A stretch of 35,081 nucleotides of DNA from Clostridia bacterium (GTDB lineage: Bacteria > Bacillota > Clostridia > Oscillospirales > CAG-272): the NCBI GenBank assembly GCA_024404505.1, contig JAKSPU010000014.1, positions 1 to 35,081 on the forward strand, given 5' to 3'. The notes beneath the pieces were generated by a model. It searched no databases and was not told where the DNA came from. It saw only the letters and a list, made by a program, of their open reading frames with translations. Position numbers and translations under genes: made by a program. Each line of letters opens with the position of its first letter. The stretch's first letter is position 1. Below are positions 13,966 through 34,257 of this stretch, piece by piece.

Positions 13966-13971
13966 TATATC

Positions 13972-14060
13972 CGGGGCTCTGCCTCGGACCCCGCCTGAAG
14001 GACGAAGTCCTTCAGGATCTCAAGGACTTCTTGAAAGAAGTCCTTGAGAATCCCAAGAAC
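13972..14060 (+). repeat. Dispersed structured repeat, copy 1 (short variant)
   Basis: It begins 7 bases after the stop codon of the DUF4340-like gene, in the same orientation. Order: head CGGGGCTCTGCCTCGG (13972-13987); a hairpin with arms CCTGAAGGAC and GTCCTTCAGG (13994-14016) not present in other copies; the central hairpin with arms CTCAAGGACTTCTT and AAGAAGTCCTTGAG around GA (14019-14048, 14 perfect pairs); then AATCCCAAGAACTTT. The distal hairpins of the full-length copies are missing. The remaining 14061-14216 holds a small hairpin at about 14066-14080 and a GC-rich patch at about 14175-14210, but no gene. Confidence 0.85.
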
Positions 14061-14216
14061 TTTAATGAATCTTTGAGATTCTCCTGTCCCTTCCCAAGCA
14101 ACGGCTGCCGCAAGCCAAGGATTGGGGTGGGAGGGGCTTCCGACAACGAAAAACACGCAGTTAACTCACAAATCGGGGAGGCGGCAGCGGATCGGACTGC
14201 GGCCGCCCGCATAAAT

Positions 14217-14244
14217 TTGAACACAACCTCACACGATATATACG
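14217..14244 (+). promoter_or_regulatory. Possible promoter for the def operon
   Basis: TTGAAC (14217-14222) and TATACG (14239-14244) are 16 bases apart, in a short AT-rich patch directly before the def ribosome site AGAAGGA. The match is moderate. It is proposed mainly because the upstream repeat separates def from the ABC operon. Confidence 0.35.
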
Positions 14245-14265
14245 ATACAGAAAGAAGGAACTCTT

Positions 14266-14715
14266 ATGGCAAAGCTGCAAATCCGCAAAGTCGGCGACGA
14301 ATGCCTCCGCAAGGTCTGCCGTCCCATTGAAACCATCACTCCCCGCACGCTCACGCTGCTCGACGATATGCTGGAGACCATGCGTGCCGCCGACGGCTGC
14401 GGCCTCGCCGGACCGCAGGTCGGCATCCTGCGCCGCATCTGCGTCGTCGAGGTGGACGACAAGGTATACGAGCTGATCAACCCGAAGATCATCGCGTTCT
14501 GCGGCGAGCAGATTGCGGAGGAGGGCTGTCTGTCCGTTCCCGGCCGCTGGGGCAAGACCCACCGCCCGATGGACGTGACCGTGCAGTGCCTCGACCGGAA
14601 CGGTGAGACCGTCACCTACACCGGCCACGACCTGCTGGCCCGCGCCTTCTGCCACGAGATCGACCATCTTGACGGCAAGCTGTTCACCGACATCGCCGAG
14701 ATGGACGACGAATGA
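14266..14715 (+). CDS. def: Peptide deformylase
   Basis: A 149-residue metalloenzyme that removes the formyl group from the N-terminal methionine of new proteins. The three family motifs are present: GCGLAGPQVG at 44-53 (usual form GxGLAAPQ, so one Ala is Gly here), EEGCLSVP with metal-ligand Cys88, and CHEIDHLDG with ligands His130 and His134 and catalytic Glu131. The length fits the family. AGAAGGA precedes the ATG. It is first in an operon with fmt, which adds the formyl group to initiator tRNA, a standard pairing. A dispersed repeat lies where priA is commonly found upstream of def. Confidence 0.96.
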   Translation: MAKLQIRKVGDECLRKVCRPIETITPRTLTLLDDMLETMRAADGCGLAGPQVGILRRICVVEVDDKVYELINPKIIAFCGEQIAEEGCLSVPGRWGKTHRPMDVTVQCLDRNGETVTYTGHDLLARAFCHEIDHLDGKLFTDIAEMDDE

Positions 14716-14739
14716 TCGTCCCGAAAGGAAGCTGAAAGC

Positions 14740-15684
14740 ATGAAGATCCTGTTTATGGGTACGCCCGATTTCGCCGTATCCTCCCTCAAGGCTCTGGTCG
14801 ACGCCGGTCACGAGATCGTCGGCGTCGTCACGCAGGCCGACAAGCCCAAGGGGCGCGGCTACGTCCTGACCCCGCCGCCCGTCAAGGCGTACGCCCTCGA
14901 CGCGGGGCTGACCGTCTACCAGCCGGCCACGCTGCGGAACGGCGCCTTTGACGCCGAGATCGCCGCGATGGCGCCTGACCTGATCGTCGTCGTCGCCTTC
15001 GGCAAGATCCTGCCGCAGTCCGTGCTTGACGCGCCGCGCCTCGGCTGCATCAACGTCCACGGCTCCCTGCTGCCCGCCTACCGCGGTGCCGCGCCCATGC
15101 AGCGCGCCATCATCGAGGGACAGGACAAGACGGGCATCACCACGATGTGCATGGCCGCCGGTCTCGACACCGGCGATATGCTGCTCAAGACCGAGGTGGA
15201 CATTCTCGAGGACGACAACTTCGAGACGATCCACGACAAGCTGGCTGCCGCCGGTGCTGACACGCTGCTCCGCACGCTCGAGGCGCTGGAGGCGGGAACG
15301 CTGACCGCGGTCCCGCAGGACGACAGTCTTGCGACCTACGCCGCCAAGATCGAAAAGGAAGACTGCCTCATTGATTTCAACAAGCCCGTGAAGCAGGTCC
15401 ACGACCTGATCCGCGGTGTGTCCCCGATGCCCCTCGCGTTCACGCACACGCCGGACGGCAAGCTGCTGAAGGTCCCCGCTGCCCGCCGGGAAAAGCTCAC
15501 CGGGCATTACGGCACCCCGGGCATCATCCTGCGGCTGGACGCCTCCAAGGACGGCGGCATCGAGGTCGCCTGCGCCGAGGGCACGCTGCTGATCACGCGC
15601 GTGGTCCCCGAGGGCAAGGGGCAGATGTCCGCCGCGGACTACATCCGCGGGCGCAAGGTCCGGGAGGGCGATATACTCGCCTGA
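14740..15684 (+). CDS. fmt: Methionyl-tRNA formyltransferase
   Basis: A 314-residue cytoplasmic enzyme that formylates methionyl-initiator tRNA with 10-formyl-tetrahydrofolate. Visible features are the N-terminal MKILFMGTPDFAVSSL, the catalytic-domain stretch INVHGSLLPAYRGAAPMQ (about residues 104-121, with the SLLPxxRG signature), TGITTMCMAAGLDTGDML, and a C-terminal domain with FNKPVKQVHDLIRGVSPMP (about residues 207-225). Length is normal. It follows def by 24 bases with GAAAGGAAGC as ribosome site. Confidence 0.96.
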   Translation: MKILFMGTPDFAVSSLKALVDAGHEIVGVVTQADKPKGRGYVLTPPPVKAYALDAGLTVYQPATLRNGAFDAEIAAMAPDLIVVVAFGKILPQSVLDAPRLGCINVHGSLLPAYRGAAPMQRAIIEGQDKTGITTMCMAAGLDTGDMLLKTEVDILEDDNFETIHDKLAAAGADTLLRTLEALEAGTLTAVPQDDSLATYAAKIEKEDCLIDFNKPVKQVHDLIRGVSPMPLAFTHTPDGKLLKVPAARREKLTGHYGTPGIILRLDASKDGGIEVACAEGTLLITRVVPEGKGQMSAADYIRGRKVREGDILA

Positions 15685-15732
15685 CCGGGGCTTTTCCGTC
15701 CTCCCTCTGCCGCCCTTAATGAAAGGAAATCT

Positions 15733-16446: not shown

Positions 16447-16478
16447 TCTTACGCGCCGCCGCTGTAAAGGAGCATCCC

Positions 16479-17906: not shown

Positions 17907-18969
17907 TCCCTCCCGCGACCTGCTCTCCCTGCTCCCCGATCAGCTGGAGGCGCTGCTCCTCTCGGTCGGCGAGCCGAAATACCGCGCGTCGCAGCTGTTC
18001 CCGCAGCTGCACCGGGGACTTTCGCCCGATGAGATGACCAACATCGGCAAGGCGACCCGCGAAAAGCTGGCGTCCGCCGCCGAATACCATCTGCCCGCGG
18101 TGCGGCGCAAGCTGATCTCCGCGCTCGACGGCACGGTCAAGTACTTATTCGAGCTGCGCGACGGCAACTGCGTCGAGTCCGTCGTGATGAAGTACAATCA
18201 CGGCAACACGATCTGCATCTCCTCGCAGGTCGGCTGCCGGATGGGCTGCAAGTTCTGCGCCTCGACCATCGGCGGCAAGGTGCGCGACCTGATCCCCGGC
18301 GAGCTGATCGGGCAGGTCATCGCCGCGCAGAAGGACACCGGCGAGCGCATCTCCAACATCGTCATGATGGGCATCGGCGAGCCGCTCGACAACTACGACA
18401 ACGTCATACAATTCTTGAAGCTGGTCGCTCACCCGGACGGGCTGAACATCGGCTACCGCCACATCTCGCTGTCGACCTGCGGTGTGGTCCCGAACATCCT
18501 GCGTCTGGCCGGGCAGGACTTTCCCATCACGCTGTCGATCTCGCTGCACGCGTCCGACGACGTGACGCGCTCCTCGATCATGCCCGTGAACAAGCGCTGG
18601 GGCGTGGACGAGCTGCTGAACGCCTGCAAGGCGTACTACGACAAGACAAACCGCCGCATCTCCTTTGAGTACACGCTGATCTCCGGCAAGAACGACACGG
18701 CCGCCGCCGCGACGCAGCTGGCCAACGTCCTGAACCGCCATCTGCGCTCCCGGACCTCGACGATGCCGATCCACGTGAACCTGATCCCCGTCAACGAGGT
18801 GACGGAGACCGGCTTCAAGCGCGCCTCCGACGAGAATATCGCCGCCTTTGCGCGTATCCTCGAGGCCCACGGCATCCGCGCCACCGTCCGCCGCCGGCTC
18901 GGCTCCGACATCAACGCCTCCTGCGGTCAGCTGCGCCGCGCCGAGGGGCTTAAAAATGAAGAAACGTAA
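17899..18969 (+). CDS. rlmN: Dual-specificity 23S rRNA/tRNA adenosine C2-methyltransferase RlmN
   Basis: A 356-residue radical-SAM enzyme that methylates 23S rRNA A2503 and tRNA A37. The iron-sulfur motif CxxxCxxC is GCRMGCKFC, with Cys113, Cys117 and Cys120. It is preceded by NTICISSQVGC and followed by ERISNIVMMGIGEPLDNYDNV. The C-terminal GSDINASCGQLR holds the second catalytic Cys. ATG 17899 is chosen since alignment with the family starts there; an upstream TTG at 17869 would only add ten non-conserved residues. AGAAAGG is the ribosome site, somewhat distant. The order rsmB-rlmN is conserved in Firmicutes, where stp and prkC often follow; here a dispersed repeat follows instead. Confidence 0.96.
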   Translation: MTDPSRDLLSLLPDQLEALLLSVGEPKYRASQLFPQLHRGLSPDEMTNIGKATREKLASAAEYHLPAVRRKLISALDGTVKYLFELRDGNCVESVVMKYNHGNTICISSQVGCRMGCKFCASTIGGKVRDLIPGELIGQVIAAQKDTGERISNIVMMGIGEPLDNYDNVIQFLKLVAHPDGLNIGYRHISLSTCGVVPNILRLAGQDFPITLSISLHASDDVTRSSIMPVNKRWGVDELLNACKAYYDKTNRRISFEYTLISGKNDTAAAATQLANVLNRHLRSRTSTMPIHVNLIPVNEVTETGFKRASDENIAAFARILEAHGIRATVRRRLGSDINASCGQLRRAEGLKNEET

Positions 18970-18971
18970 TG

Positions 18972-19078
18972 CGGGGCTCTGCCCCGCGCCCCGGAGACGC
19001 TTGCGGGGCTCTGCCCCGCACCCCGCTCAAGAAACTTCTTGAAAGAAGTTTCTTGAGAATCTTCAAGAACTTTCAAGG
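18972..19078 (+). repeat. Dispersed structured repeat, copy 2 (short variant, double head)
   Basis: It begins 2 bases after the rlmN stop codon, same orientation. Two head palindromes CGGGGCTCTGCCCCG lie at 18972-18986 and 19004-19018, 32 bases apart. The central hairpin has arms CTCAAGAAACTTCTT and AAGAAGTTTCTTGAG around GA (19026-19057, 15 perfect pairs). AATCTTCAAGAACTTT closes the copy. The distal hairpins are missing, and the next gene's ribosome site follows directly. Confidence 0.85.
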
Positions 19079-19094
19079 CAGGGATCAAGATAAA

Positions 19095-19643
19095 ATGTAC
19101 GCATATACTTCCAACGGGTCCCGGACGTCGCTGCACCTGATCGTCATCGCCGCGCTGTCGTGTGCGATCCTTTTGTTTTCCGCGTCCTCGGCGGAGGGTG
19201 TCCCGATGCCGTGGGTATTCCAGCTGGCCGGGATCTTTATCGGGGCGTTCGGCGTCTATATGCTGACCCGCTACTCGCTGCGGTCCTACCGCTACGAGAT
19301 CACCGACACCGATCTTGTTGCCGCGGACGGGCAGCGCGTGCTTGACCTGACGGTCACGCAGGCGACGGGCCGAAAGCTGACCGTGGTATGCCGCGTGAGT
19401 CTGCGGGACGTGACCGCCGTGAACGTCCTTGACCGTGCCTCGTTCCGCCGTCAGAAGGCGGCGCTGTGCGCGGGGCTGACGCTGTTCCGGTACGAGAACA
19501 CGCCGTTCGAGCCGCTGAGCTGCTATATATCCGTTCCCGAGGAACGGTCTCTGCTGGCGATCCCCGCCGACGAGGGCATGGCCCGGCTGCTGCGGGAGGC
19601 CGCCGAGGCAAACGCGGCCCCCGCCGGGGAAGCCGAGGAATAA
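19095..19643 (+). CDS. Small membrane protein with PH-like domain, function unknown
   Basis: A 182-residue protein with two hydrophobic segments (about 13-31 and 38-58) followed by a soluble domain. The domain resembles bacterial PH-like/YdbT-type folds: RSYRYEITDTDLVAADG, then VVCRVSLRDVTAVNVLD, then a C-terminal helix. The start is taken as ATG 19095. The frame is open back to 18969, but those residues are encoded by repeat copy 2 and have no ribosome site; AGGGA lies about 10 bases before 19095. The last residues are Ala/Glu-rich. No family is recognised with certainty. It may be read from the rlmN transcript through the repeat. Confidence 0.65.
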   Translation: MYAYTSNGSRTSLHLIVIAALSCAILLFSASSAEGVPMPWVFQLAGIFIGAFGVYMLTRYSLRSYRYEITDTDLVAADGQRVLDLTVTQATGRKLTVVCRVSLRDVTAVNVLDRASFRRQKAALCAGLTLFRYENTPFEPLSCYISVPEERSLLAIPADEGMARLLREAAEANAAPAGEAEE

Positions 19644-19736
19644 ACGCGGATTTCCGGGCCTTCATACCGGTCCCGCCCCTTTCCCCGCGTATAACGCTCT
19701 CAACAGTCTACATTCCCGCAAGGAGTCTTTTTCACT

Positions 19737-21773
19737 ATGATCACACTTTCCGCCACCAACCTTGCCCTGCGCTTCGGCACGACCACGATCCTCGAGAACG
19801 TGTCCTTCGCGCTGGACGAGAACGATAAATTAGGCGTCATCGGCGTGAACGGCTGCGGCAAGTCGTCGCTGTTCCGCATGATCGCGCACTGCGTCGGCAA
19901 AGAGCCGGACTACGAGCCGACCGAGGGCGAGGTCTTTCTCTCAAAGGGCAAGACCTTCGGCATCCTGACGCAGGAGGGCGCGTTCGCGGAGGTCAGCGAG
20001 GACGGTGACAGCAGCCAATGCGCGCTGGACCACATGGTCCACGCCTTCCCCGCCCTGCTCGCCGCCGAGGCCCGTCTTGACGAGCTGCAGAAGCAGCTGG
20101 ACGCCGGCATCGGCGCCGCGGGCGGTCCGGACGCCTACGACGTCCTCACGCGCGAGTATTCCGCGCTCCATGACCGCTTCATCCGTGACGGCGGGCTGGA
20201 GTTCCGGGGCCGCTGCGTGGGTCTTCTGCGCCGCCTCGGCTTTGACGACGAGCTGTCTCGGCTGCCGATCAAGTACCTGTCCGGCGGTCAGAAGACGCGT
20301 CTGGCGCTCGGCATCCAGCTTTCGCGTCAGCCGGACGTCCTGCTGCTCGACGAGCCGACCAACCATCTCGACATCGAGACACTCGGCTGGCTGGAAAAGT
20401 ACCTCTGCGATTACCCCGGCTGCGTGATGGTCATCTCCCACGACCGTTACTTCCTCGACCGCGTGACCAACAAGACGCTCTGCATCCAGAACCACCACGC
20501 GAAGCTGTACAACGGCAATTACACGGCCAGCATGGAGCAGCGCCGCATCGACCGTGCGCTGGAGGAGAAGCACTACAAGGACCAGCAGAAGGAGATCGCG
20601 CGTCAGGAGGCGTACATCGCCCAGCAGCGCGCGTGGAACCGCGAGCGCAACATCATCGCCGCGGAGTCCCGTCAGAAGATGCTGGACAAAATGGTCCGCC
20701 TCGAGAAGCCGGAGAACGCGCCGAAGCCGATCAGGCTGAAGTTCACCGCGTCCCGCGCCAGCGGCGGAGAGGTACTGTCGCTCCGCGACGTCACGATGGG
20801 CTTTGACGGCCGCATCCTGTTCTCGCACCTCGACTATCTCGTCAAGAAGGACGACCGCGTGCTGATCCTCGGTCAGAACGGCTGCGGCAAATCGACGCTG
20901 ATCAAGCTGCTGATCGGCAGGCTGGAGCCGCTCGACGGCATCATCGAGGCCGGCTACAACGTAGAGATCGGCTACTACGATCAGGAAAACCAGAATCTCG
21001 ACCCCGACAAGACGGTACTGAACGAGCTGTGGGACGCCTACCCGCAGATGAAGGAGACCGACATCCGGAACGCGCTCGGGCAGTTCCGCTTTGTCGGCGA
21101 GGACGTTTTCAAGCAGGTATCGGTGCTGTCCGGCGGCGAGCGGGCGCGGCTGACGCTGTGCAAGCTGATCCTGTCGCGCATGAACCTTCTGATCCTCGAC
21201 GAGCCTACGAACCACCTCGACATCGACAGCCGCGAGGCGCTGGAGGCGGCGCTTGAGCAGTTCGACGGCACGATCGTGACGGTCAGCCACGACCGTTACT
21301 TCATCGAGAAGCTGGCGACGCGGATCCTCGAGATCTGCCCCGGCGAGGGCATCACGGGCGTTGACGGTCACGGCGACTACACCGACTACCGCGTGGACAC
21401 CGTCGGCGGCGGCTACACGGAGTACCGGCGTTTTCTGGACGACCGCCGCGCGTCGCTCGGTCTGTCTGCCGGCGCGTCCGCGCCGACCGCGATGGGCGTC
21501 CGCGCCGACGCGTCCGCCGCTCCCTCCTCCTCCAAAGAGGAGTACCAGAAGGCCAAGCAGGCCGTTGCCGACGCACGCAAGCTGAAAAACCGCATCGAAC
21601 GTCTGCACAAGGAGGCCGACACGCTGGAGGCCGAGATCGACGCCATCGACACCGAAATGAACGGTGACGCCGCAACCGACTTCGTCCGCGTCGCCGAACT
21701 CGACACCCTCAAAACACAAAAAGAAGACCGCCTGCTGGAAGTATACGAGGAGCTTGAGGAATTAGAAGGATAA
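19737..21773 (+). CDS. ABC-F family ATPase (Uup/EttA type)
   Basis: A 678-residue soluble protein with two ABC domains and no membrane segment. Domain 1: Walker A GVNGCGKSS at 36-44, LSGGQKTRLALG, and LLLDEPTNHLD. The family linker with charged helices runs over about 260-330 (KHYKDQQKEIARQEAYIAQQ and RNIIAAESRQKMLDKM). Domain 2: Walker A GQNGCGKST near 380, LSGGERARLTLCK, and LILDEPTNHLD. A low-complexity Ala/Ser linker leads to a C-terminal coiled coil (about 605-678). ABC-F proteins act on the ribosome, in translation control or antibiotic protection; without alignment the subtype cannot be fixed. AAGGAG lies before the ATG. The 93 bases upstream hold no convincing promoter apart from a lone TATAAC near 19691. 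Confidence 0.92.
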   Translation: MITLSATNLALRFGTTTILENVSFALDENDKLGVIGVNGCGKSSLFRMIAHCVGKEPDYEPTEGEVFLSKGKTFGILTQEGAFAEVSEDGDSSQCALDHMVHAFPALLAAEARLDELQKQLDAGIGAAGGPDAYDVLTREYSALHDRFIRDGGLEFRGRCVGLLRRLGFDDELSRLPIKYLSGGQKTRLALGIQLSRQPDVLLLDEPTNHLDIETLGWLEKYLCDYPGCVMVISHDRYFLDRVTNKTLCIQNHHAKLYNGNYTASMEQRRIDRALEEKHYKDQQKEIARQEAYIAQQRAWNRERNIIAAESRQKMLDKMVRLEKPENAPKPIRLKFTASRASGGEVLSLRDVTMGFDGRILFSHLDYLVKKDDRVLILGQNGCGKSTLIKLLIGRLEPLDGIIEAGYNVEIGYYDQENQNLDPDKTVLNELWDAYPQMKETDIRNALGQFRFVGEDVFKQVSVLSGGERARLTLCKLILSRMNLLILDEPTNHLDIDSREALEAALEQFDGTIVTVSHDRYFIEKLATRILEICPGEGITGVDGHGDYTDYRVDTVGGGYTEYRRFLDDRRASLGLSAGASAPTAMGVRADASAAPSSSKEEYQKAKQAVADARKLKNRIERLHKEADTLEAEIDAIDTEMNGDAATDFVRVAELDTLKTQKEDRLLEVYEELEELEG

Positions 21774-21777
21774 CGTT

Positions 21778-21952
21778 CCGGGGCGCTGCCCCGGACCCCG
21801 CTTAAGCCCTTCTTGAAAGAAGGGCTTAAGGATCCCAAGAACTTTACGGGCAATGAATAAAAGAAGGTTCGGCTTACGCCGGACGGGATGGGTGGGTGCC
21901 GTCAAGGGCACCCGCCATTTTTAGACGCCCACGCGGGGGCCCCTTACCCCGC
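21778..21952 (+). repeat. Dispersed structured repeat, copy 3 (full length)
   Basis: It starts 4 bases after the ABC-F stop, same orientation. Order: head CCGGGGCGCTGCCCCGG (21778-21794); central hairpin, arms CTTAAGCCCTTCTT and AAGAAGGGCTTAAG (21801-21830); GATCCCAAGAACTTTACGGG; small hairpin GTTCGGC/GCCGGAC around TTAC (about 21868-21885); distal hairpin GGTGGGTGCC/GGCACCCGCC (21891-21916); an AT-rich step; and hairpin GCGGGG/CCCCGC (21933-21952). It is used here as the reference order for the family. Confidence 0.9.
21891..21922 (+). terminator. Possible terminator formed by the distal hairpin of repeat copy 3
   Basis: GGTGGGTGCC and GGCACCCGCC pair over 10 positions with one G-U around GTCAAG. 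ATTTTTA follows. It lies 118 bases after the ABC-F stop and would end that transcript. The U-tract is short. Confidence 0.45.
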
Positions 21953-22461
21953 TCTGAAGAGGAAACCGAGCGCCGGGGCGCGGAGAAACGCCTCACGCGT
22001 TCCGCGCTCGGGGACCTACCCCCTACCCCCTCCCGTGCGCGGGAGGGGGAGATATTTTTATCTTTCAGCAAGGGGAAGGGCTGCTGCTGCAGCCCTTCCC
22101 CTTGCATCCTCATCCCTGAGACACCGCGCCAGCGGGCGCGGGGATGATGTGCGTGCCACCCTCATCCTGCGGGGACGCAGGAGCCACGGCACGCTTCCCC
22201 GCGCCAGCAGGCGCGGCATCCCCGGGATGAGGAGACCGAGGAGAGGGGGTGCCGCAGCGCCCCCTCTCCTCGGCAAAAGGATTTTGATACTCCCCCTCCC
22301 GCGCACGGGAGGGGGTCGGGGGGTGGGGCCCCGAGCGCAGTTGAAAACGCGCGAGGCGTTCCCTGCACCCTCATCCTGCGCGGATGCGGGGGAACGCGTC
22401 TCCCGTAACCCCGTTCCCCGGGTCTGCACGGACGCGGCAGATGCCATCTGCCCGATCCCAA
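21953..22461. repeat. Mosaic of GC-rich hairpin modules between two facing repeat copies
   Basis: No gene is seen. The stretch is a chain of palindromes. 22026-22049: arms CCCCCTCCCG/CGGGAGGGGG. 22068-22105: a 17-pair hairpin with arms GCAAGGGGAAGGGCTGC and its complement around TGCT. 22123-22140 and about 22198-22215: CCGCGCC/GGCGCGG pairs. 22236-22273: a 17-pair hairpin starting CCGAGGAGAGGGGG, one G-U. 22292-22315: the exact reverse complement of the 22026 palindrome. 22436-22452: GGCAGATGCCATCTGCC. Similar modules recur at 30371-30618, 34257-34350 and 34880-35081. Confidence 0.85.
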
Positions 22462-22643
22462 GCGGGGTCAGGAGCCCCCGCGTAGACGTTTATAAGAATA
22501 GTGGGCGCCCATGACAGCACCCACCAATCTCGTTCAGCGTAAAAACTCAACCCCGGTCAATCTTTGACCCTGTATAAAAGTTCTTGGGATCCTTAAGCCC
22601 TTCTTTCAAGAAGGGCTTAAGCGGGGTCCGGGGCAGAGCCCCG
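22462..22643 (-). repeat. Dispersed structured repeat, copy 4 (full length, minus orientation)
   Basis: Read on the minus strand it starts 16 bases after the U32 peptidase stop, in that gene's orientation. Head at 22643-22629; central hairpin at 22621-22592 with the same arms as copy 3; then AGAACTTTTATACAGG; an extra hairpin (plus-strand GGTCAATCTTTGACC, 22555-22569) absent from copies 3, 5 and 7; a partly broken small hairpin (22532-22551 region); distal hairpin (about 22501-22525); and the GCGGGG/CCCCGC-type hairpin at 22481-22462. It faces copy 3. Confidence 0.88.
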
Positions 22644-22659
22644 CGTATCCGCCCCCCGC

Positions 22660-24927
22660 CTACTTTATGCGCCTGACCTCTCCCCCGACGGGCGTACCCT
22701 CCTGTGCGGCGCGGATGACGGCATCCACGGCGGCGGGGGACTCGACCGAGAAGATGAAGTGCTGCCGGTCGATCCCGGCGCGGAGCAGCTCATCCGCCCG
22801 ATCCGTCATGGACAGCGGCAGACTGTTGTATATCACATTGCGGTGATCGAACGTCCGCAGGACGGGGAACGCGACTCCCTTGCGGTCCCGCAGAACGGCC
22901 TCCCCGCGCGCACAGGCAGCGCACGCCGCACCCGAACGACCGTCCGGCTTCGCCGGATCGGCACTTCCGGGGTACAACTCGCGGATCACACACTTTTCCA
23001 GCAGCATCAGCGGGATGCGCCCGTAGGTAACGCTGCGGACCGCACCCGGCAGCGCCCGGTGCAAATCACGCAGACGCGGCAACGTCAGCTCCGGCGACAG
23101 CAGAACTTCGGCGTACCCCTGCCCCAGAACGGACAGCGCGATCCGCTGCTGCGCCGCCGCCGAGGCGCGGTTGGTCACGTTCAGGCGGAAATCTCCGTGC
23201 AGCACCGGCATCACGACACCCGCAGCCTCCGCCGCCCGGCGGATCAGCGACAAATGCCCGACGTTGCCGACCATCACGTCCCCGCAGCCGTCCCGCAGCG
23301 CGTCGGCCAGCAGGGCCGCCGCCCGCTCCGCCTCGCGGTCAAAGATCACACCCGGCAGCACGACGCCCCGCCGCGCGCCGGAAACACTCTTCTTCCAACG
23401 CTCAAGCGGCAGGAAGCAAAGCCCGAAACAGTCCTCCGCGGCCCGCGTGATCTGCTCCGGCTTGTCAAAACGCGCGGTCAGACGCGGACTCTCCCCGGCA
23501 CCCGCCGGCATCGGGGCAGCGTCATCCGCGGCACCCGCGTCATACCCCGCCGCGGGATCAGGCATCCCGGACAGCCGGGCCTTGTCAAGCGCGTCCAGCG
23601 CCTCCCGGCGCAGCGCGTTCAGACGCGAAGCGGGCATCAGAAGCCCGCTCTCCACGTCAGCCGCCACACCGCCGCCTCTGCTCACGTCGTAAGCAGTCCC
23701 GCCGACCTTGCCGAGCCGCTCGACCACGGACGCCTCCGTCAGCGCGGCCTCCGGGTTGCGCGCGGTGTCCGGAACGTCTCCGCTCACGGAAACGGTCACC
23801 AGCTCTTCCGCGTCCGGCTCGTTCTCCCACCGGAAACGCGGCGCGGACGCCGTGACTGTCACGGGCTGCCCCGCCTTCACCTCGGCCCGCAGGGATACCG
23901 GCACAAACCCGGCCGGGCGGTCGTTGGCCTTCTCGGCCCCGGCAGACTTTTCCTTGTCCTCGTCGGACCGCACGCCCATCATGGCGTGGTCGATATGCCC
24001 CGTGAAGTAACCGTCCGTAAACCCGCCGCGCGAGAACAGCGCGGACAGCCGCTCCACCTCGTCGGGGATCGCGGACCTTCTCTCGTCCAGAAGCCGCCGC
24101 CAGACGGCGGTCACGCCCGCGACGTAGCCGGGACTTTTCATGCGGCCCTCGATCTTGAGCGACGATACCCCGGCGTCGATCAGCGCCGGAACGTGGCTGC
24201 ACAGCGACAGGTCCTTGAGCGACAGGGGGTAGGCTTCCTTCTCCGAAGCCCTTCCCTGCCGTTTCCCGTCCGCTCCGCCCGCGTAGGGCAGCCGGCAGGG
24301 CTGGGCGCACTCGCCCCTGTTGCCTGACCGCCCGCCGACCAGCGACGAGAACAGGCACTGCCCGGACGTGCAGACGCACAGCGCCCCGTGGATGAACACC
24401 TCGACCTCCAGCGGGTTGTCGCGGACGGCGGCCTTCAGGTCGCAGAGCCGCGTCTCGCGGGCGATGACGAAGCGGGAGAAGCCCTGCGCCCGCAGGGCAG
24501 TCCCGATCGCGGCGTTGTGTCCCGACAGCTGGGTGCTGGCGTGCAGCGGCAGCGACGGCAGCGCACGGCGAATCAGCGCGGCAGCGCCGACGTCGGCGAT
24601 GATGAGTCCGTCCACACCGGCCACGGCGGCGGCGTAGGCCGCCCGCACGGCGTCGGTCAGCTCGCGGTCCCAGATCAGCGTGTTGAGCGTCAGGTAGATG
24701 CGGCCGCCCATCCGGTGCGCGGTCGAAACGGCATCCCGCAGCTCGCCGTCGTTGAAATTATGGGCGTTCATGCGCGCGTTGAACGCGCTGCCGCCCAGAT
24801 AGACAGCATCAGCCCCGGCGCCCAGCGCCGCTTCGAGCGCCTCCGGCGAACCGGCGGGCGCGAGCAGCTCGGGCAAACGGGGCAGATGGTCCGGATATGT
24901 AGGCTTTCCCGATCCGGTGCGTGTCAT
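22660..24927 (-). CDS. U32 family peptidase / RlhA-like rRNA hydroxylation protein
   Basis: A 755-residue cytoplasmic protein of the U32 group with the long C-terminal region seen in YdcP/RlhA-like members. The N-terminal barrel begins with ELLAPAGSPEALEAALGAGADAVYLGG. The U32 signature lies at about 174-211: EVEVFIHGALCVCTSGQCLF, then SGNRGECAQPCR, whose cysteines are expected to bind an iron-sulfur cluster. SLKDLSLCSHVPALIDAGVSSLKIEGRMKSP follows. E. coli RlhA hydroxylates 23S rRNA C2501; other U32 members were described as collagenases. The start lies 6 bases after the zapA stop with no separate strong ribosome site, so translation is likely coupled. zapA next to a U32 gene is a common Firmicutes pairing. 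TAG stop at 22662-22660. Confidence 0.88.
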   Translation of the reverse strand: MTRTGSGKPTYPDHLPRLPELLAPAGSPEALEAALGAGADAVYLGGSAFNARMNAHNFNDGELRDAVSTAHRMGGRIYLTLNTLIWDRELTDAVRAAYAAAVAGVDGLIIADVGAAALIRRALPSLPLHASTQLSGHNAAIGTALRAQGFSRFVIARETRLCDLKAAVRDNPLEVEVFIHGALCVCTSGQCLFSSLVGGRSGNRGECAQPCRLPYAGGADGKRQGRASEKEAYPLSLKDLSLCSHVPALIDAGVSSLKIEGRMKSPGYVAGVTAVWRRLLDERRSAIPDEVERLSALFSRGGFTDGYFTGHIDHAMMGVRSDEDKEKSAGAEKANDRPAGFVPVSLRAEVKAGQPVTVTASAPRFRWENEPDAEELVTVSVSGDVPDTARNPEAALTEASVVERLGKVGGTAYDVSRGGGVAADVESGLLMPASRLNALRREALDALDKARLSGMPDPAAGYDAGAADDAAPMPAGAGESPRLTARFDKPEQITRAAEDCFGLCFLPLERWKKSVSGARRGVVLPGVIFDREAERAAALLADALRDGCGDVMVGNVGHLSLIRRAAEAAGVVMPVLHGDFRLNVTNRASAAAQQRIALSVLGQGYAEVLLSPELTLPRLRDLHRALPGAVRSVTYGRIPLMLLEKCVIRELYPGSADPAKPDGRSGAACAACARGEAVLRDRKGVAFPVLRTFDHRNVIYNSLPLSMTDRADELLRAGIDRQHFIFSVESPAAVDAVIRAAQEGTPVGGEVRRIK

Positions 24928-24933
24928 ACCGGA

Positions 24934-28800: not shown

Positions 28801-30138
28801 AAAGTCGGTGACGAGGCGCGCGATTCCGCGAGTCTTTTGCTGGCCGGCACCCTATACCGGCTCCGCGATCCGGAAGCGGAAGACTACGAGGAGAGGCTTT
28901 CGATCATTTCTGGCCTTCTGAGTCACATCCGGCCCGCGTCCCCCGCCTATGCCTGTGCCTCCCTGATCCGGGCCGAATTCCTGCTGAAGCAGCTGTACAC
29001 GGATGAATCCGGCGGTCAGCCCGCGCCCTCCTGCCAGCAGGCAGCCAATCTCTGCATCCGTGCGGTCTGCTGGCCGCGCCGGATCCTGCTCGGAGCCGAC
29101 GAGCTTGATCCCGATGCCGATACTTATACCGATCCCGTTCGTCCCACGGATCCCGGCAGCCGCACTGACTACGTCTGGGCCGTACCGGATTCCGACACCG
29201 AGATCGATTTCGAGCAGACGGCGCAGGTCGATTCCGTCGATCTGAGCGTGACCGCCGCCGCGCCTGCCGCGGTCGGTCCCGCGCTCTCCCTCTTCCGTCT
29301 GAAGCAGCGGGAGGACGGCGAAGCAGCCGTGATCGGGCAGGTGAAGGCTGACGCGCTGTACCGGCTGGCCGTTCTGTCCTCGACGCAGCGCTGGGCGCTG
29401 CAAACGCCCGCGCCGTCCGGCACACATGAAACGCAGGGCCGCACGGTATGCTTCGAGTATCTGGCCCGGGCCATTCTGGCGGGTCACGAGGCGGCGGCAG
29501 ACGATTTTGCCCGTATGCTGGCAGACAAGCCCGTCGAAGAGGAAAATCGACCGGCACGCCGGCAGACGTTATTCGGCAGCACGAAAGCGAGCAGTACGTC
29601 CGATCAGCGCGAGCCCGCCGACATGATGCGGCGCTTCTATTCCGCCGGATGTCCCGTACCGGTCCCGTTCGTTATCGGGGCCTCCGACGTCTCCGGCAGG
29701 GACGACCCTGTCGTGACGTCGTCCATGCGCGCGACGGCTATGAACTATCTGGGTGACTGTCTCTACTTCGGGCAGTACCTGACAGCCGACCGCGCCGCCG
29801 CCGTGACCTGTTTCCGCGCCGCGGCTGACGCCAAGCCGTCTTCGGACGATCCCGATTGTTCCGCCATCGTCTGGGCCCGATACAGCCTCGGCTGCTGTCT
29901 GATCCGTGGGATCGGCTGTCCCGCCAATCCCCGCGAGGGTGTCGCCCGGCTGACAGCCGCCGCCGGCACGCACGCCGTCGCCGCCTACACCCTCGCCGAA
30001 TGCTTCGAGAAGGGCATCGGCGTCGATCCCGGCGATTACCGCTTCCGCGAGGCCGTCAAATACTACCGCCATTCCATGGCCCTCGGCTTCCGCCCCGCCG
30101 AAGACAGGCTCAAGGCTATGGAGAAGCAGCTGACGTAA
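25849..30138 (+). CDS. TIR-like domain protein with about 17 Sel1 repeats
   Basis: A 1429-residue cytoplasmic protein without signal or membrane segments. ATG 25849 is set by GGAAAGGAGG 7 bases upstream; an earlier in-frame start at 25810 would include that site. Residues 1-140 resemble a bacterial TIR domain: RPYLCISSAPADGAAAERL, CGFRYELIDD, CSCGLMLTSPAA, VSGVAADIRFLL, RPVVCLSLEDNGLDHRM. The position of the catalytic Glu of NAD-cleaving TIRs appears to be Asp73. Residues about 175-330 and 440-830 hold some 14 Sel1 (alpha/alpha) repeats such as AMYRLGSCCRSGFGVPRDPALAIRLYERAA. An Ala/Pro/Glu/Asp-rich linker covers about 825-885. A less regular helical part follows, and three more Sel1 units end the protein. 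Sel1 arrays usually bind protein partners. Its own promoter and isolation suggest a stand-alone signalling or defence role, which is inference. Confidence 0.75.
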   Translation: MRPYLCISSAPADGAAAERLTRDLTRCGFRYELIDDSLPRAKREALLAECSCGLMLTSPAAERGAVVSGVAADIRFLLSQGRPVVCLSLEDNGLDHRMCVPAGPADEMSGRAAELIPYSGIGTGDPAQTAMFIHTLYIRRLCRLTDCFSVTHCVDDVYGRAIRQAVNAWAGSGDAAYALAGLYESGTGVPGLESEAVFWIETAASREHIDGMLRLAAYRLDGIGGVRAPEEALALYRRVSAAGDARGLYGQGLCALCGFGMLRDSAEAARLFAQAAEDRNADVRAAARFRLGLLRQAGSGTRQDFWGAAWDLYRAADALTGYRPPVRVFNAPEADPEAVFPLFTRRPVSLSDGKKPVYRVVSLRSMTEQKLLSLLAAKGVYPKRPRSVMAVCRYRRSSCPEAAWLALSPDPASDAAAVSLDSRFSRMTYDASMAAYALGVLLEERHRRTTAGPSADPASAALSDSRLDYPPMPAAGRCPSGIDALRWYRLAAAHGHSGAMYRLGSCCRSGFGVPRDPALAIRLYERAAALGDRDACFALGVCCECGDGIPQDGAAAAAWYERSAKAGCVPAMNNLGGCYERGFGVEKDLSAAVEWYARAAKLGQPEAVYRLGLCAETGRGMSRDVSRAAELYRQAADAGNPYAAYRLGLFNELGISVEPHFSLSTRLYEKAARAGVPDAAYAMGLCARSGRGCLRDDHRAFQWFRAGAGRFVQAAYEAGCCLYEGIGVIRDYDEAVICFRQAADLWAGLPSSNEADGPVPPDGLTAAQAGGNALYMLGYCALYGIGTSSGPDIRLCASYLKQASQQGHAAADTLLGDLYAWGELHAEAAEAAPEAPAENKPAEVSSAGENPAGDDPVDDKPAEDAPAEGGPATDAAAPDAPAGKPCCASFDLYPNPWKTAAPSDHAAAVECYLHAISNAIGNAGGHAAGAPDTNDRLCRQGRADALFSLALERSARADELWAAGDVKAAKEADASCREYLWEAYKVGDEARDSASLLLAGTLYRLRDPEAEDYEERLSIISGLLSHIRPASPAYACASLIRAEFLLKQLYTDESGGQPAPSCQQAANLCIRAVCWPRRILLGADELDPDADTYTDPVRPTDPGSRTDYVWAVPDSDTEIDFEQTAQVDSVDLSVTAAAPAAVGPALSLFRLKQREDGEAAVIGQVKADALYRLAVLSSTQRWALQTPAPSGTHETQGRTVCFEYLARAILAGHEAAADDFARMLADKPVEEENRPARRQTLFGSTKASSTSDQREPADMMRRFYSAGCPVPVPFVIGASDVSGRDDPVVTSSMRATAMNYLGDCLYFGQYLTADRAAAVTCFRAAADAKPSSDDPDCSAIVWARYSLGCCLIRGIGCPANPREGVARLTAAAGTHAVAAYTLAECFEKGIGVDPGDYRFREAVKYYRHSMALGFRPAEDRLKAMEKQLT

Positions 30139-30155
30139 AGAGAACGAAGGGTACG

Positions 30156-30370
30156 CGGGGCTCTGCCCCGGACCCCGAGGACGCGTGTGGGGCTCTGCCC
30201 CACGCCCCGCTTAAGCCCTTCTTGAAAGAAGGGTTTAAGGATCCCAAGAACTTTATGGGCAATGAATAAAAGAAAGTTCGGTTTACGCTGAACGGGATTG
30301 GTGGGTGCCGTCATGGGCACCCACTGTTCTTATAAACTATAAACGCCTACGCGGGGGCCCCTGACCCCGC
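30156..30370 (+). repeat. Dispersed structured repeat, copy 5 (full length, double head)
   Basis: It begins 17 bases after the TIR-like/Sel1 stop, same orientation. Heads CGGGGCTCTGCCCCG (30156-30170) and GTGGGGCTCTGCCCCAC (30187-30203; the outer C-G pair is T-A here). Central hairpin 30210-30239, arms CTTAAGCCCTTCTT and AAGAAGGGTTTAAG (one G-U). ATCCCAAGAACTTTATGGG, then small hairpin GTTCGGTTTACGCTGAAC (about 30276-30293). Distal hairpin GTGGGTGCC/GGCACCCAC (30301-30324). GCGGGG/CCCCGC hairpin at 30351-30370. Confidence 0.9.
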
Positions 30371-30618
30371 TCGGGACACGGCAGATGGCATCTGCCGTGT
30401 CCGTGCAAACCCGGGGGAACGGGGACGCGTCCCTCGCATCCCGCGGGATGAGGGTGCAGGGAAAAGGGAGCGGCACAGCCGCTCCCTTCTCCCTGCTATA
30501 AAAAAAGATATTCCCCCCGCCCGCCGGGCGGGGGTCAGGGGGGTGGGGGCTGAAGCTTTTTCAGAACTTCCGGCGATGCTGTACCGCCGGGTACACGGCG
30601 CTCGGTTTCCTCTTCATA
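30371..30618. repeat. Mosaic of hairpin modules, second array
   Basis: No gene is seen. 30375-30401: palindrome GACACGGCAGATG/CATCTGCCGTGTC around one G, a longer form of the 22436 module. 30456-30496: a 19-position hairpin (GCAGGGAAAAGGGAGCGGC against its near complement, one mismatch). An A-rich step follows at 30499-30510. 30514-30534: arms CCCCCGCCC/GGGCGGGGG. Then GGGGGGTGGGGGC and a stretch around 30552-30585 (TTCCGGCGATGCTGTA) that recurs near 34885-34920 on the other strand. Confidence 0.82.
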
Positions 30619-30827
30619 GCGGGGTAAGGGGTCCCCGCGTAGGCGTTTAAAAGAAGGTGGGCGCCCATGACGGCACCCACCTTTCTCGTTGAGCGTAAAC
30701 TCAACCTCGGTCAATCTTTGACCCTGTATAAAAGTTCTTGGGATCCTTAAGCCCTTCTTTCAAGAAGGGCTTAAGCGGGGTCCGGGGCAGAGCCTCGGCG
30801 CATCCTCGGGCCCGGGGCAGAGCCCCG
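30619..30827 (-). repeat. Dispersed structured repeat, copy 6 (full length, minus orientation)
   Basis: Read on the minus strand: heads at 30827-30813 and 30797-30783 (the second with one mismatch); central hairpin 30775-30746; the extra hairpin (plus-strand GGTCAATCTTTGACC, 30709-30723) as in copy 4; small hairpin GTTGAGCGTAAACTCAAC (30688-30705, 6 perfect pairs); distal hairpin GGTGGGCGCC/GGCACCCACC (30656-30681); GCGGGG/CCCCGC hairpin 30638-30619. This is the only copy whose head does not follow a stop codon; it abuts the zur operon control region. Confidence 0.88.
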
Positions 30828-30859
30828 CGTACCATACTTATAATAAACGCCATCCAATT

Positions 30860-30874
30860 TAAGAATCATTCTCA
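30860..30874 (+). promoter_or_regulatory. Fur-family (probable Zur) operator, 7-1-7 inverted repeat
   Basis: TAAGAATCATTCTCA reads as TAAGAAT, a central C, and ATTCTCA, whose complement is TGAGAAT: 6 of 7 positions are symmetric. The 7-1-7 design and the AAT-N-ATT core match Zur, Fur and PerR operators of Gram-positive bacteria. It ends 6 bases before the -35 of the zur-znu promoter, where a bound repressor would block polymerase. Confidence 0.8.
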
Positions 30875-30880
30875 AATCTA

Positions 30881-30909
30881 TTGACAAAACGAGAAAACCG
30901 TGATATACT
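30881..30909 (+). promoter_or_regulatory. Consensus sigma-A promoter of the zur-znu operon
   Basis: TTGACA (30881-30886) and TATACT (30904-30909) are separated by exactly 17 bases. The leader to the zur start codon is about 30 bases and contains AAAGGAGA. Confidence 0.92.
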
Positions 30910-30946
30910 ATGGAGACCACGATAGAGAAAAAGGAGACAGTTGCCC

Positions 30947-31381
30947 ATGAGCACGTACAAAACCGAAGGCCGGCAGCGGCTGCTGTCGTTCCTGCTGGAT
31001 CATCCGGACAGGCAGTACACGGTCGACCAGATCACAGAGGCGCTCGACGACGGCACGCGCCCGATCGGCAAAAGCTCGCTGTACCGGCAGTTGTCCGAGC
31101 TGTGCGAGGACGGCACGGTCCGCAAGTTCCGCACGGAGACGCAGTCCTCGTTCGTGTACCAGTTCGTCGGGCAGACGGACTGCTCACACCATTTCCACCT
31201 GAAATGTCTGGTCTGCGGCAGGCTGATCCATCTGGAGTGCAGCCTGAGCGACGAGCTGCTGGAGCATATCCGTGAGGATCACCATTTCCGCGTCGACAGC
31301 GGGCGGTCGCTCCTGTACGGCTGCTGCGAGGCGTGCGCGGCCAGACTTGAAAAGCAAACAAACGACGGAGAACAAGCATGA
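30947..31381 (+). CDS. zur: Fur-family metalloregulator, probably Zur
   Basis: A 144-residue repressor. A winged-helix DNA-binding domain covers residues 1-75 (VDQITEAL, then IGKSSLYRQLSELCEDG as recognition region). The dimerisation/metal domain holds CSHHFHLKCLVCGRLIHLEC (His81, His82, His84, Cys87 and Cys90) and CCEAC (Cys127, Cys130); the CxxC pairs form the structural zinc site of the family. ATG 30947 is preferred, with AGGAG 10 bases upstream; a TTG at 30941 lies too close to it. The stop overlaps the start of the binding-protein gene (ATGA at 31378). Co-transcription with a ZnuABC-type importer and the upstream 7-1-7 box point to zinc-dependent autorepression. Manganese or iron sensing is possible but less likely. 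Confidence 0.85.
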   Translation: MSTYKTEGRQRLLSFLLDHPDRQYTVDQITEALDDGTRPIGKSSLYRQLSELCEDGTVRKFRTETQSSFVYQFVGQTDCSHHFHLKCLVCGRLIHLECSLSDELLEHIREDHHFRVDSGRSLLYGCCEACAARLEKQTNDGEQA

Positions 31382-32385: not shown

Positions 32386-32423
32386 TCTGAAAAAGGCCGC
32401 GCAGGCGGCAAAGGACGGCAAAC

Positions 32424-33215
32424 ATGAAGCACATCACAAACAGTACGCTTCCCGCGGGTGTTCTTCTGCGCGGGGTGGACGTGTCGCTCGGTTACGAGGG
32501 GCGCGATATCGTCAAGGGCCTGAATTTCACGGTTTCCGACGGGGACTATCTCTGCATCGTCGGGGAGAACGGCTCCGGCAAAAGCACGCTGATGAAGGCG
32601 ATCCTCGGTCTGCATCCGCTGTCCGGGGGAACGCTGGAAATGTCTCCGGAGCTTCGGAGGTACGGCATGGGGTATCTGCCGCAGCAGACGCCGGCGCAGA
32701 AGGATTTTCCCGCGTCGGTGCGCGAGGTGGTGCAGTCCGGCTGTCTGCGCAGGCTCGGCTGGAAGCCTTTCTTCGGACGGACGGAAAAGCAGCTGACGAA
32801 CGAGGCGATGGCGCGGCTGGACATCACGCATCTGGCGGACCGGTGCTACCGGGACCTGTCGGGCGGGCAGCAGCAGCGTGTCCTGCTGGCGCGGGCGTAC
32901 TGCGCGGCGGGCAAGATGATCCTGCTCGACGAGCCGATCGCGGGACTTGACCCGCTGGCCATGCAGGATATGTACGGCATGATCGCGGGCATGAACAAGC
33001 CCGTGGCGGACCGCCCGATGCCGGGGCGGCAGCATCTCGGCTCCGGCGTGACGGTGGTGATGGTATCCCACGACGTGCCGGCGGCGGTGAAGTACGCGAC
33101 GCACATCCTGCACATGGGCGGCGAGACGACGTTCTTCGGGACGGTTGGGGACTATCTGAAGACGCCGGAGGGCCGTCTGTTCGCGGGCTGCACGGAGGGA
33201 AAAGACGGTGACTGA
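32424..33215 (+). CDS. znuC: Metal ABC transporter ATP-binding protein (ZnuC-like)
   Basis: A 263-residue ATPase. Walker A GENGSGKST is at 47-55, Q-loop in YLPQQTP, signature LSGGQQQRVLLARA at 145-158, Walker B MILLDEPIAGLDP at about 165-177, and H-loop VMVSHD at about 212-217. Between the D-loop helix and the H-loop strand lies an insertion, NKPVADRPMPGRQHLGSG (residues 191-208), longer than in typical ZnuC, where only a few residues are found. AAAGGA lies before the ATG, 38 bases after znuA. It powers the import of zinc by the permease downstream. Confidence 0.92.
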   Translation: MKHITNSTLPAGVLLRGVDVSLGYEGRDIVKGLNFTVSDGDYLCIVGENGSGKSTLMKAILGLHPLSGGTLEMSPELRRYGMGYLPQQTPAQKDFPASVREVVQSGCLRRLGWKPFFGRTEKQLTNEAMARLDITHLADRCYRDLSGGQQQRVLLARAYCAAGKMILLDEPIAGLDPLAMQDMYGMIAGMNKPVADRPMPGRQHLGSGVTVVMVSHDVPAAVKYATHILHMGGETTFFGTVGDYLKTPEGRLFAGCTEGKDGD

Positions 33216-34047
33216 GCTGATCGCAACGCTGAAAACGTATTTTTCGTACGGATTCGTGCGGAATGCGCTGGTCGCCGGGGTTCTGATCTCGCTGTGCGCG
33301 GGTCTGCTCGGCGTGACGCTGGTGCTGAAGCGCTACTCGATGATAGGCGACGGCTTGTCGCACGTCGCGTTCGGCGCGATGGCGGTGGCGGCCGTGGTCG
33401 GCTGGGCGCCGATGGCGGTGGCTCTGCCGGTGACGGTCGGCTCGGCGGTGCTGCTGCTTCTGGCGTCGGAGCGGGGCAAGATCAAGGGAGACGCGGCGAT
33501 CGCGATGCTGTCGGCGGGCGCTTTGTCCGTCGGGTACCTGCTCCTGAATCTGTTCCCGTCGGCGAACACGGGCAAGTTCAGCGAGGAGACGCTGTTCGGA
33601 TCGACGTCGATGCTGACGCTGACGGGCGTGGACGTGCTGCTGTGCGTGCTGCTGGCGGCGGCGGTGCTGGTTTTCTTCATTTTCTTCTATCACCGCATCT
33701 TTGCGGTAACGTTCGACGAACGCTTTTCGACGGCGAACGGTCTGCGGTCGCAGGTTTACAACTTCCTGATCGCGGCAGTAAGCGGCGTTGTCATCGTGCT
33801 GGCGATGAAGCTGGTGGGTGCGCTCCTGATCTCCGCCCTTATCATCTTCCCTGCCCTCTCGGCAATGCGCCTGTTCCGCAGCTTCCGGTCCGTGATGATA
33901 TGCTCCGCGGCGATCTCCGTCGCCGGCTCCGTGCTGGGCCTCCTGCTCTCTGTCCTCTACGGCACCCCGACCGGCGCGACCGTCGTCGTCATCCACCTCG
34001 TCATCTTCGGAGTATTCTCTGCGCTGAAGGTCGTTATGAAGAGGTAA
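33208..34047 (+). CDS. znuB: Metal ABC transporter permease (ZnuB-like)
   Basis: A 279-residue inner-membrane protein of the ABC-3 family with about eight hydrophobic segments. Family features are FVRNALVAGVLISLCAGLLGVTLVLKRYSMIGDGLSHVAFG near the N-terminus (given here as two adjoining parts, FVRNALVAGVL and LKRYSMIGDGLSHVAFG) and the coupling region YHRIFAVTFDERFSTANGL. The start is GTG 33208, with GGAGGGA about 8 bases upstream; it overlaps znuC by 8 bases, so translation is coupled. It is the last gene of the zur-znu operon and is followed by repeat copy 7. Confidence 0.93.
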   Translation: MTELIATLKTYFSYGFVRNALVAGVLISLCAGLLGVTLVLKRYSMIGDGLSHVAFGAMAVAAVVGWAPMAVALPVTVGSAVLLLLASERGKIKGDAAIAMLSAGALSVGYLLLNLFPSANTGKFSEETLFGSTSMLTLTGVDVLLCVLLAAAVLVFFIFFYHRIFAVTFDERFSTANGLRSQVYNFLIAAVSGVVIVLAMKLVGALLISALIIFPALSAMRLFRSFRSVMICSAAISVAGSVLGLLLSVLYGTPTGATVVVIHLVIFGVFSALKVVMKR

Positions 34048-34055
34048 AAAGTACG

Positions 34056-34251
34056 CGGGGCTCTGCCCCGGACACCGAGGACGCGTTTGCGGGGCTCTGC
34101 CCCGGACACCGAGCGGGGCTCTGCCCCGGACCCCGCTTAAGCCCTTCTTGAAAGAAGGGCTTAAGAATCCCAAGAACTTTATGGGCAATAAATTAAACAA
34201 GGTTGGGTTTACGCTCAACAAGAATGGTGGGTGCCGTCATGGGCGCCCGCC
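34056..34251 (+). repeat. Dispersed structured repeat, copy 7 (full length, triple head)
   Basis: It starts 9 bases after the znuB stop, same orientation. Three head palindromes CGGGGCTCTGCCCCG are at 34056-34070, 34090-34104 and 34114-34128. Central hairpin 34136-34165 with the copy 3 arms; AATCCCAAGAACTTTATGGG; small hairpin GTTGGGTTTACGCTCAAC (34202-34219); distal hairpin GGTGGGTGCC/GGCGCCCGCC (34226-34251). Confidence 0.9.
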
Positions 34252-34257
34252 TTTTGT
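34226..34257 (+). terminator. Possible terminator of the zur-znu operon (distal hairpin of repeat copy 7)
   Basis: A 10-position hairpin, GGTGGGTGCC and GGCGCCCGCC around GTCATG, is followed directly by TTTTGTGATTT. It is the best terminator candidate after znuB, 179 bases after its stop. Confidence 0.5.

Follow-up and report, generated by a model that had tools for sequence, protein, structure and literature searches.

The 35,081-nt stretch of contig JAKSPU010000014.1 from a Clostridia bacterium (the window, meaning the whole stretch analysed) carries seven copies of a structured repeat, six of which lie just past the stop codon of a gene read in the same direction. We consider it probable that this repeat belongs to a new family of small mobile DNA palindromes resembling the repetitive extragenic palindromic (REP) elements, amplified here as a long form that makes mRNA 3′ ends. 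It is a new REP-like family and not a categorically new system, since a position just past stop codons has already been described for REPs (PMC3733652).

The core of the repeat follows a simple grammar: at least one head palindrome (xGGGGCTCTGCCCCx′ followed by NNACCCCGC), a perfect central hairpin of ∼26–32 nt, and a conserved, single-stranded box that ends in AAGAACTTT. The 13-mer box TCCCAAGAACTTT occurs exactly six times in the window against an expectation of 0.23, a count reached by none of 100 shuffles, and a seventh core 3′ of rlmN carries the variant box TCTTCAAGAACTTT (19060–19073), in agreement with the seven cores of the initial annotation, which had been made from the letters of the window alone. 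That annotation had also placed six of the cores 2–17 bases past a co-oriented stop, and the measured distances from the head (CGGGGC) bear this out, at 2 nt (rlmN), 5 nt (ABC-F), 6 nt (DUF4340), 8 nt (znuB), 16 nt (U32, minus strand) and 17 nt (Sel1). The exception is the minus-strand core at 30731–30796, which has no stop codon ahead of its head.

The same placement is found across the window's own assembly (G000; 2.95 Mb in 229 contigs, 89% complete), in which the exact TCCCAAGAACTTT box occurs 160 times and the reversed-pattern control not once. The context analysis took 100 of these 160 copies, namely those listed first, with the window's six included; choosing copies by an exact box conceals variation in the box itself. 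Genes were called with a codon-usage script of our own that was trained on 18 open reading frames (ORFs) of the window and returned 17 of them; its performance on the window is for this reason no independent test. None of the 100 copies lies inside a called gene. A left gene was called for 84, and 77 of these copies are co-oriented with the stop ahead and 7 are not (the other 16 are without a called left gene). Where both neighbours were called (n = 47), 24 gaps are convergent, 21 tandem and 2 divergent, and in the tandem gaps co-oriented copies outnumber opposite ones by 19:2; the remaining copies have one neighbour uncalled, many of them at contig ends. The head lies a median of 16 nt past the stop, and ≤20 nt past it in 52 of the 76 co-oriented copies with a located head. 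Among the 47 copies with both neighbours called, 27 have the head ≤20 nt past a co-oriented stop, as compared with a mean of 2.2 and a maximum of 8 in 5000 trials of random placement and orientation within the same gaps. Distance and orientation to the nearest stop, tabulated for these copies, provide clear evidence of a preference for gene 3′ ends in G000, and the orientation bias that had been judged from the window to exceed chance is confirmed there.

Helices were counted in 47 dereplicated full-length copies picked by regular expression. Paired cells amount to 98.9% in the head, 100% in the central hairpin, 86.2% in a small third hairpin and 95.6% in a terminator-like fourth; the observed pairing of the four helices was reached by 0 of 500 shuffles, and the central hairpin has two-sided changes at 7 of 13 pairs, with the reservation that the copies are related and the helix cells are not independent events. 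On the gene's strand, G-U cells are rare in the head (1/282) and central hairpin (4/611) and frequent in helix 3 (21/276) and helix 4 (73/454), and on this ground the first two helices evolve in the manner of perfect DNA palindromes, and helices 3 and 4 in that of RNA read along the gene. A core model alignment of 117 copies, which was fitted to the covariance model and is hence biased towards it, has two-sided changes in 17 of 18 pairs and 99.1% of cells paired (0/500 shuffles as high); G-U accounts for only 16 of 2034 cells in these core helices, whose covariation is almost purely Watson-Crick, as in a DNA palindrome. The core is separable from what follows it, as loci L018, L042 and L053 have unrelated hairpins after the core and the rlmN copy has the next gene. 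Dimer-like forms occur in G000 at L016, L057 and L079. For the head of the congener copies, a kink-turn was weighed by eye as an interpretation and set aside.

The terminal hairpin of the long form resembles, in sequence, an intrinsic terminator, namely a GC hairpin usually followed by a U-run. Such a hairpin with a U-run lies ≤137 nt past the box in 70 of 93 G000 copies, where the opposite strand gives 26 by the same criterion and a single shuffle gives 5; it was not seen in several congener copies.

Orthologous gene ends are occupied patchily. At the rlmN end, compared in 11 genus genomes, a clear element is present in G000, G001 and G003, a divergent form in G005, an apparent 5′ linker remnant in G010 and G011, and nothing in five. 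In G001 and G003 the rlmN translation enters the head and ends at the head's internal TGA, so that the repeat supplies the stop codon; this overlap of head and gene qualifies the extragenic position. In G008 and G009, a TAATG contains both the stop of rlmN and the start codon that follows. The ABC-F end (12 genomes) holds the canonical element in G000 only, G004 and G005 having hairpin-box forms that diverge from it, and the U32 end (10 genomes) has the element directly past the stop in G000 only, with ordinary hairpins in G005, G007 and G010 and reversed box-hairpin pieces further downstream in G003 and G004. Shared copies were sought among 127 core matches selected from model searches. Six species pairs have a copy in common at 97–100% core identity, which is never below that of the head-side flank, and the next 100 nt past these copies are 54–93% identical, below the core in all five measurable pairs; the contrast is partly built in because the six pairs were chosen for alike cores. 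The remaining orthologous comparisons give core identities of 0.14–0.85, through absence or a different version. The species also differ at five orthologous gene ends in the sequence of the version present, each version being self-complementary; the frequency of such cases is biased because the loci were fetched for containing the element. Around position 1501 of L097/L098, G010 and G007 have an identical core and a near-identical downstream stretch with dissimilar upstream sequence, as if the gene had been exchanged up to the element.

The polarity of the copies was further examined in relatives, with a congener table of 98 of 125 model matches (overlapping duplicates, partial and weakest ones dropped) and a table for other genera of 70 of 71 (L405 899–964 dropped); genes were called with the window's codon model in congeners and with models trained on each fetched stretch in other genera. 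Tandem solo copies are co-oriented versus opposite at 16:5 in G003, 7:4 in G009 and 6:6 in G006, and at 13:13 when pooled over seven genomes of other genera, whereas the copies in tandem gaps of the own genome give 19:2. An orientation bias as a universal trait was rejected on four congeners and the seven genomes of other genera, and because of the even ratios in G006 and the other genera, polarity is regarded as strong in the window's species, and perhaps in G003, and not as a defining trait. The initially annotated bias is to this extent a property of the own genome that is not constant elsewhere. Tail-to-tail dimers make up 26 of the 43 tabulated copies of G006, and in congeners and other genera alike the head end of a copy is mostly near a gene whichever the orientation, with exceptions. 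Where congener copies lie between co-oriented genes, the next gene is in many cases called within ∼30–200 nt; those near 1501 in L100/L101, L113/L122 and L114/L115 are intercistronic in what we take to be microcompartment or glycyl-radical-enzyme operons.

A covariance model of the core, with up to 150 candidates scored per genome, finds the core in 12 of the 12 genomes searched in the genus, the own included, and G000 has the most copies of the 12. A second model, built from copies aligned with the first and applied at E up to 1e-4, is positive in 72 of the 146 family genomes sampled, spread over 41 of 71 genera, and in 38 of the 197 order genomes sampled; of these 38, 31 lie outside the family and belong to 11 other families. 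The model search that the initial annotation had proposed traces the repeat well beyond its genome. The head motif alone occurs, among the matches listed, in Clostridia, Synergistaceae, Bacteroidales, termite-gut Bacillota, Streptomyces and others. Among the titled loci listed, a second perfect hairpin stands close 3′ of the head in most loci from Clostridia (18 of 22), termite-gut Bacillota (10 of 15) and a Synergistaceae/Puniceicoccales/Adiutrix/Desulfovibrio group (8 of 9), in 0 of 9 from Bacteroidia and in 8 of 25 from a remaining, mostly actino-/proteobacterial group. With a crude ORF rule, the listed matches to the cross-phylum head motif GGGGCTCTGCCCCNNACCCCGC exhibit no stop-codon preference (left neighbours 31 co-oriented versus 32 opposite; 39 matches were called inside ORFs, a count that we do not trust), and the spread of the head motif beyond the order is taken as a lead only. 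In L130–L240 the motif occurs in unrelated phyla, often in a hairpin chain with GACCCC after it, which suggests, from these sequences, a much wider class of extragenic palindromes.

The initial annotation had recognised no named family, and the whole window indeed gives no Rfam match at gathering score; what does not stand as new is the stop-proximal position, given its description for REPs. With E up to 1, the region 21770–22660 gives 18 Rfam matches, all far under their gathering scores and mostly microRNA hairpins. The sub-threshold matches in a GC-rich inverted repeat were dismissed, including one to MIR839 (E 8e-15) with 74.6 bits against a gathering score of 200. The head, its complement, the box and the hairpin core, searched as strings in the open-access literature, returned only one unrelated paper. 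According to PMC3733652, the gaps that hold REP elements are unidirectional or convergent, the distance to a gene 3′ end is mostly <20 bp, and GTAG REP termini often provide the stop codon. The present family resembles the REP/BIME/REPIN elements of that source in being short extragenic palindromes of high copy number near gene 3′ ends in such gaps, in occasionally supplying a stop codon, and in occurring as singles and inverted dimers; the broad-sense REP-like traits of extragenic high copy, gene 3′-end position and inverted dimers or clusters are all found. It differs from them in its two-hairpin core with a conserved 3′ box, in the very few G-U pairs of that core, in the lack of a conserved GTAG or CGTC tag and of a detected Y1 transposase in G000, and, in its own species, in a marked polarity and a terminator-like hairpin that is part of the repeat. 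In the 15 nt that precede the head, GTAG occurs in only 3 of 83 G000 and 4 of 127 congener copies and CGTC in 0 of 83 and 1 of 127, respectively; its reverse complement GACG is present in 26 of 83 G000 copies but in 6 of 127 from congeners. Two other systems offer functional parallels. Stem-loops at the 3′ ends of genes in operons are reported to set transcript ratios in Clostridium cellulolyticum by selective RNA processing and stabilisation (SRPS; PMC4423207), and these share with the present family the gene 3′ ends and the clostridial operons; in the text available they are not described as a dispersed repeat family. Escherichia coli REPs <16 nt from a stop codon are reported, in the summary given by PMC12306157, to reduce translation; the stop-codon distance and strong hairpin are alike, the sequence and architecture unlike. 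By analogy, lowered translation or set operon ratios are possible effects of the present repeat.

Of the two options initially put forward, one had the family act in or on mRNA 3′ ends and the other had a mobile repeat seek out these sites; both have support, and the initial interpretation as a whole is borne out in part. Mobility is supported by the patchy orthologous occupancy, the stop-supplying copies, the dimers and the high copy number, and a 3′-end role by the position, the terminator-like hairpin of the long form and the strong core conservation of some shared copies. Several observations weigh against combining them as a mobile REP-like family: no mobilising enzyme was found, the element being present in all 12 genus genomes and Y1_Tnp in six of them; the comparisons made yielded neither a target-site duplication nor an exact empty site; several relatives are without orientation bias; the opposite strand also yields terminator-like matches (26/93); and near-identity of shared copies, together with different versions at the same site, fits selected cis-elements equally well. 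Those last two features, the 97–100% identity of six shared cores next to 54–93% in the following 100 nt of five measurable pairs and the differing self-complementary versions at five orthologous ends, are, along with the many congener copies between co-oriented genes that have the next gene close by, the grounds for a vertically kept cis-acting RNA family, in which 3′-end processing or stability signals would set operon expression in an SRPS-like manner and spread would be secondary. We regard this alternative as unlikely, though it merits serious attention. Its six pairs were selected for alike cores while other comparisons fall to 0.14–0.85, its five same-site cases come from loci fetched for holding the element, and the rlmN, ABC-F and U32 ends, which were chosen irrespective of the element, are mostly unoccupied in congeners; moreover, the core helices are nearly without G-U pairs and solo copies face either way in G006 and in other genera.

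A classical REP/REPIN system whose RAYT (Y1) transposase falls outside the incomplete assembly would account for palindromes near gene ends in tandem and inverted groupings at high copy number, and six of the 12 genus genomes have Y1 matches, five of them above the curated cut-off. The Y1_Tnp search gave no match in copy-richest G000, an absence that is not final because the assembly is 89% complete, nor in G004, G005, G007, G009 and G010, with the control search positive in 5 of 14 genomes; the core model found no core at six Y1 loci (of ten Y1 matches), and GTAG near the head is as scarce as given above. Membership of the RAYT/REPIN system was rejected for want of a link, and we hold such an origin to be quite improbable. 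Tail-to-tail dimers with outward heads have the shape of a miniature inverted-repeat transposable element (MITE), that is, an insertion sequence reduced by deletion that keeps terminal inverted repeats; with polar single units common, and no insertion sequence with such ends and no target duplication seen (neither searched for exhaustively), we think this explanation improbable. Finally, the GC hairpin of the long form, often with a U-run and well sited 3′ of genes, might suggest ordinary intrinsic terminators that merely look alike. This is contradicted by the separable core, which precedes the terminator and in other copies is accompanied by unrelated hairpins (L018, L042, L053) or by none seen (the rlmN copy and several from congeners), and near-identity between unrelated loci is unexpected of terminators; we give it hardly any credence.

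The seven copies of the window differ in the number of heads and in the extent of the 3′ part. Copy 1 (13971–14063, plus strand) follows the DUF4340-gene stop at 13963–13965, with a head palindrome at 13971–13987, an additional CTGAAGGAC/GTCCTTCAG hairpin, a central hairpin at 14019–14048 and the box at 14051–14063; no family terminator was recognised downstream of it. Copy 2 (18971–19073, plus) follows the rlmN stop at 18967–18969 with a double head (18971–18987 and 19003–19019), a central hairpin at 19026–19057 and the variant box given above, and no terminator part is seen between this box and the next gene, called at 19095. Here the rlmN stop and the repeat together make an ATG (TAATG) that opens a 224-aa ORF reading through the repeat (18969–19643), and the true start of the downstream gene is probably near 19095. 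Copy 3 (21778–21921, plus), 3′ of the ABC-F stop at 21771–21773, has its head at 21778–21794, central hairpin at 21801–21830, box at 21833–21845, hairpin 3 at 21867–21884 and a terminator hairpin at 21890–21916 with a T-run. Copy 4 (22494–22644, minus) begins 16 nt past the U32-gene stop at 22660–22662 (minus), with the core at 22577–22642, hairpin 3 at 22532–22551 and a terminator-like hairpin at 22494–22525 whose T-run is weak. Copy 5 (30155–30331, plus), 3′ of the Sel1-gene stop at 30136–30138, has a double head (30155–30171 and 30187–30203), central hairpin at 30210–30239, box at 30242–30254, hairpin 3 at 30276–30293 and a terminator-like hairpin at 30300–30331, again with a weak T-run. 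Copy 6, the exception (30649–30828, minus), adds an outer head at 30812–30828 to the core at 30731–30796, and has hairpin 3 at 30688–30705 and a terminator-like hairpin at 30649–30681; its head is turned towards the 5′ end of the plus-strand gene that comes next, which is called at 30947. Copy 7 (34055–34255, plus) follows the znuB stop at 34045–34047 with a triple head (34055–34071, 34089–34105 and 34113–34129), central hairpin at 34136–34165, box at 34168–34180, hairpin 3 at 34202–34219 and terminator at 34226–34255. Pfam identifies the neighbouring genes as encoding a DUF4340 protein, RlmN, an ABC-F-like ATPase, a U32 peptidase, a Sel1-repeat protein and an ABC-3 (znuB-like) permease; of the TIR-like/Sel1 label initially given to the fifth, the Sel1 repeats are retained and the TIR-like part has no Pfam match.

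Other repeats accompany the family. The window has GC-rich palindromic modules at 21922–22490, 30340–30620, 34260–34350 and 34944–35065 (e.g. GCAGGGAGAAGGGAGCGG...CTCCCTTCTCCCTGC), which are further repeat families 3′ of the terminators and form mosaics of 680–870 bp between inverted copies. A MITE-like insert of 69 or ∼170 bp, with ends GCATtACCGCACAATG and CATTGTGCgGTaATGC, lies within the outer central hairpin at L076 1954–2022, L076 6586–6755, L083 1001–1069 and L044 1833–2001, flanked by a 6-bp duplication of the CTTAAG type (CTTGAG in L083, imperfect in L044), and several contigs stop within the same insert sequence beside a box. It seems to be an insertion element that targets the hairpin of the repeat, much as insertion sequences are said to target REPs (PMC3733652).

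Returning to the REP-like family that we favour, copies would spread as DNA and stay in place with a few nucleotides between the head end and the end of a gene, at times providing its stop codon; transcribed as 3′ untranslated region (UTR), their hairpins would cap the upstream message. In the window's own species the amplified long form would add a small hairpin and an intrinsic terminator, and as it carries the terminator each co-directional long copy may act as a ready-made transcript end. The sequences themselves show the architecture, copy number and position of the repeat, its orientation bias in this species, its covariation, its patchy occupancy and the near-identity of some copies that species share; how copies move, whether they terminate transcripts and whether they influence the stability or translation of mRNA we infer. 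A bolder extension, which we advance tentatively and regard as rather doubtful, is that the order harbours a hitherto undescribed family of structured gene-end elements both mobile and functional, portable 3′-UTR/terminator cassettes that arrive near stop codons by a non-Y1 route, are then selected, are replenished with new versions at the gene ends already occupied and rewire operon expression. The REP literature, as far as its available text goes, says little of these bacteria, and neither Firmicutes nor Clostridi(um) appears in the main text of the REP papers in that portion. Present in about half of the sampled family genomes, governed by a clear grammar, with covariation that is almost wholly Watson-Crick and with no Y1 found in the richest genus genome, the family makes it possible to test how repeats of this kind multiply when the known enzyme is lacking; if its 3′-end role is true, it would represent a simple way for a repeat to add a transcript end or to shift the ratios within an operon.

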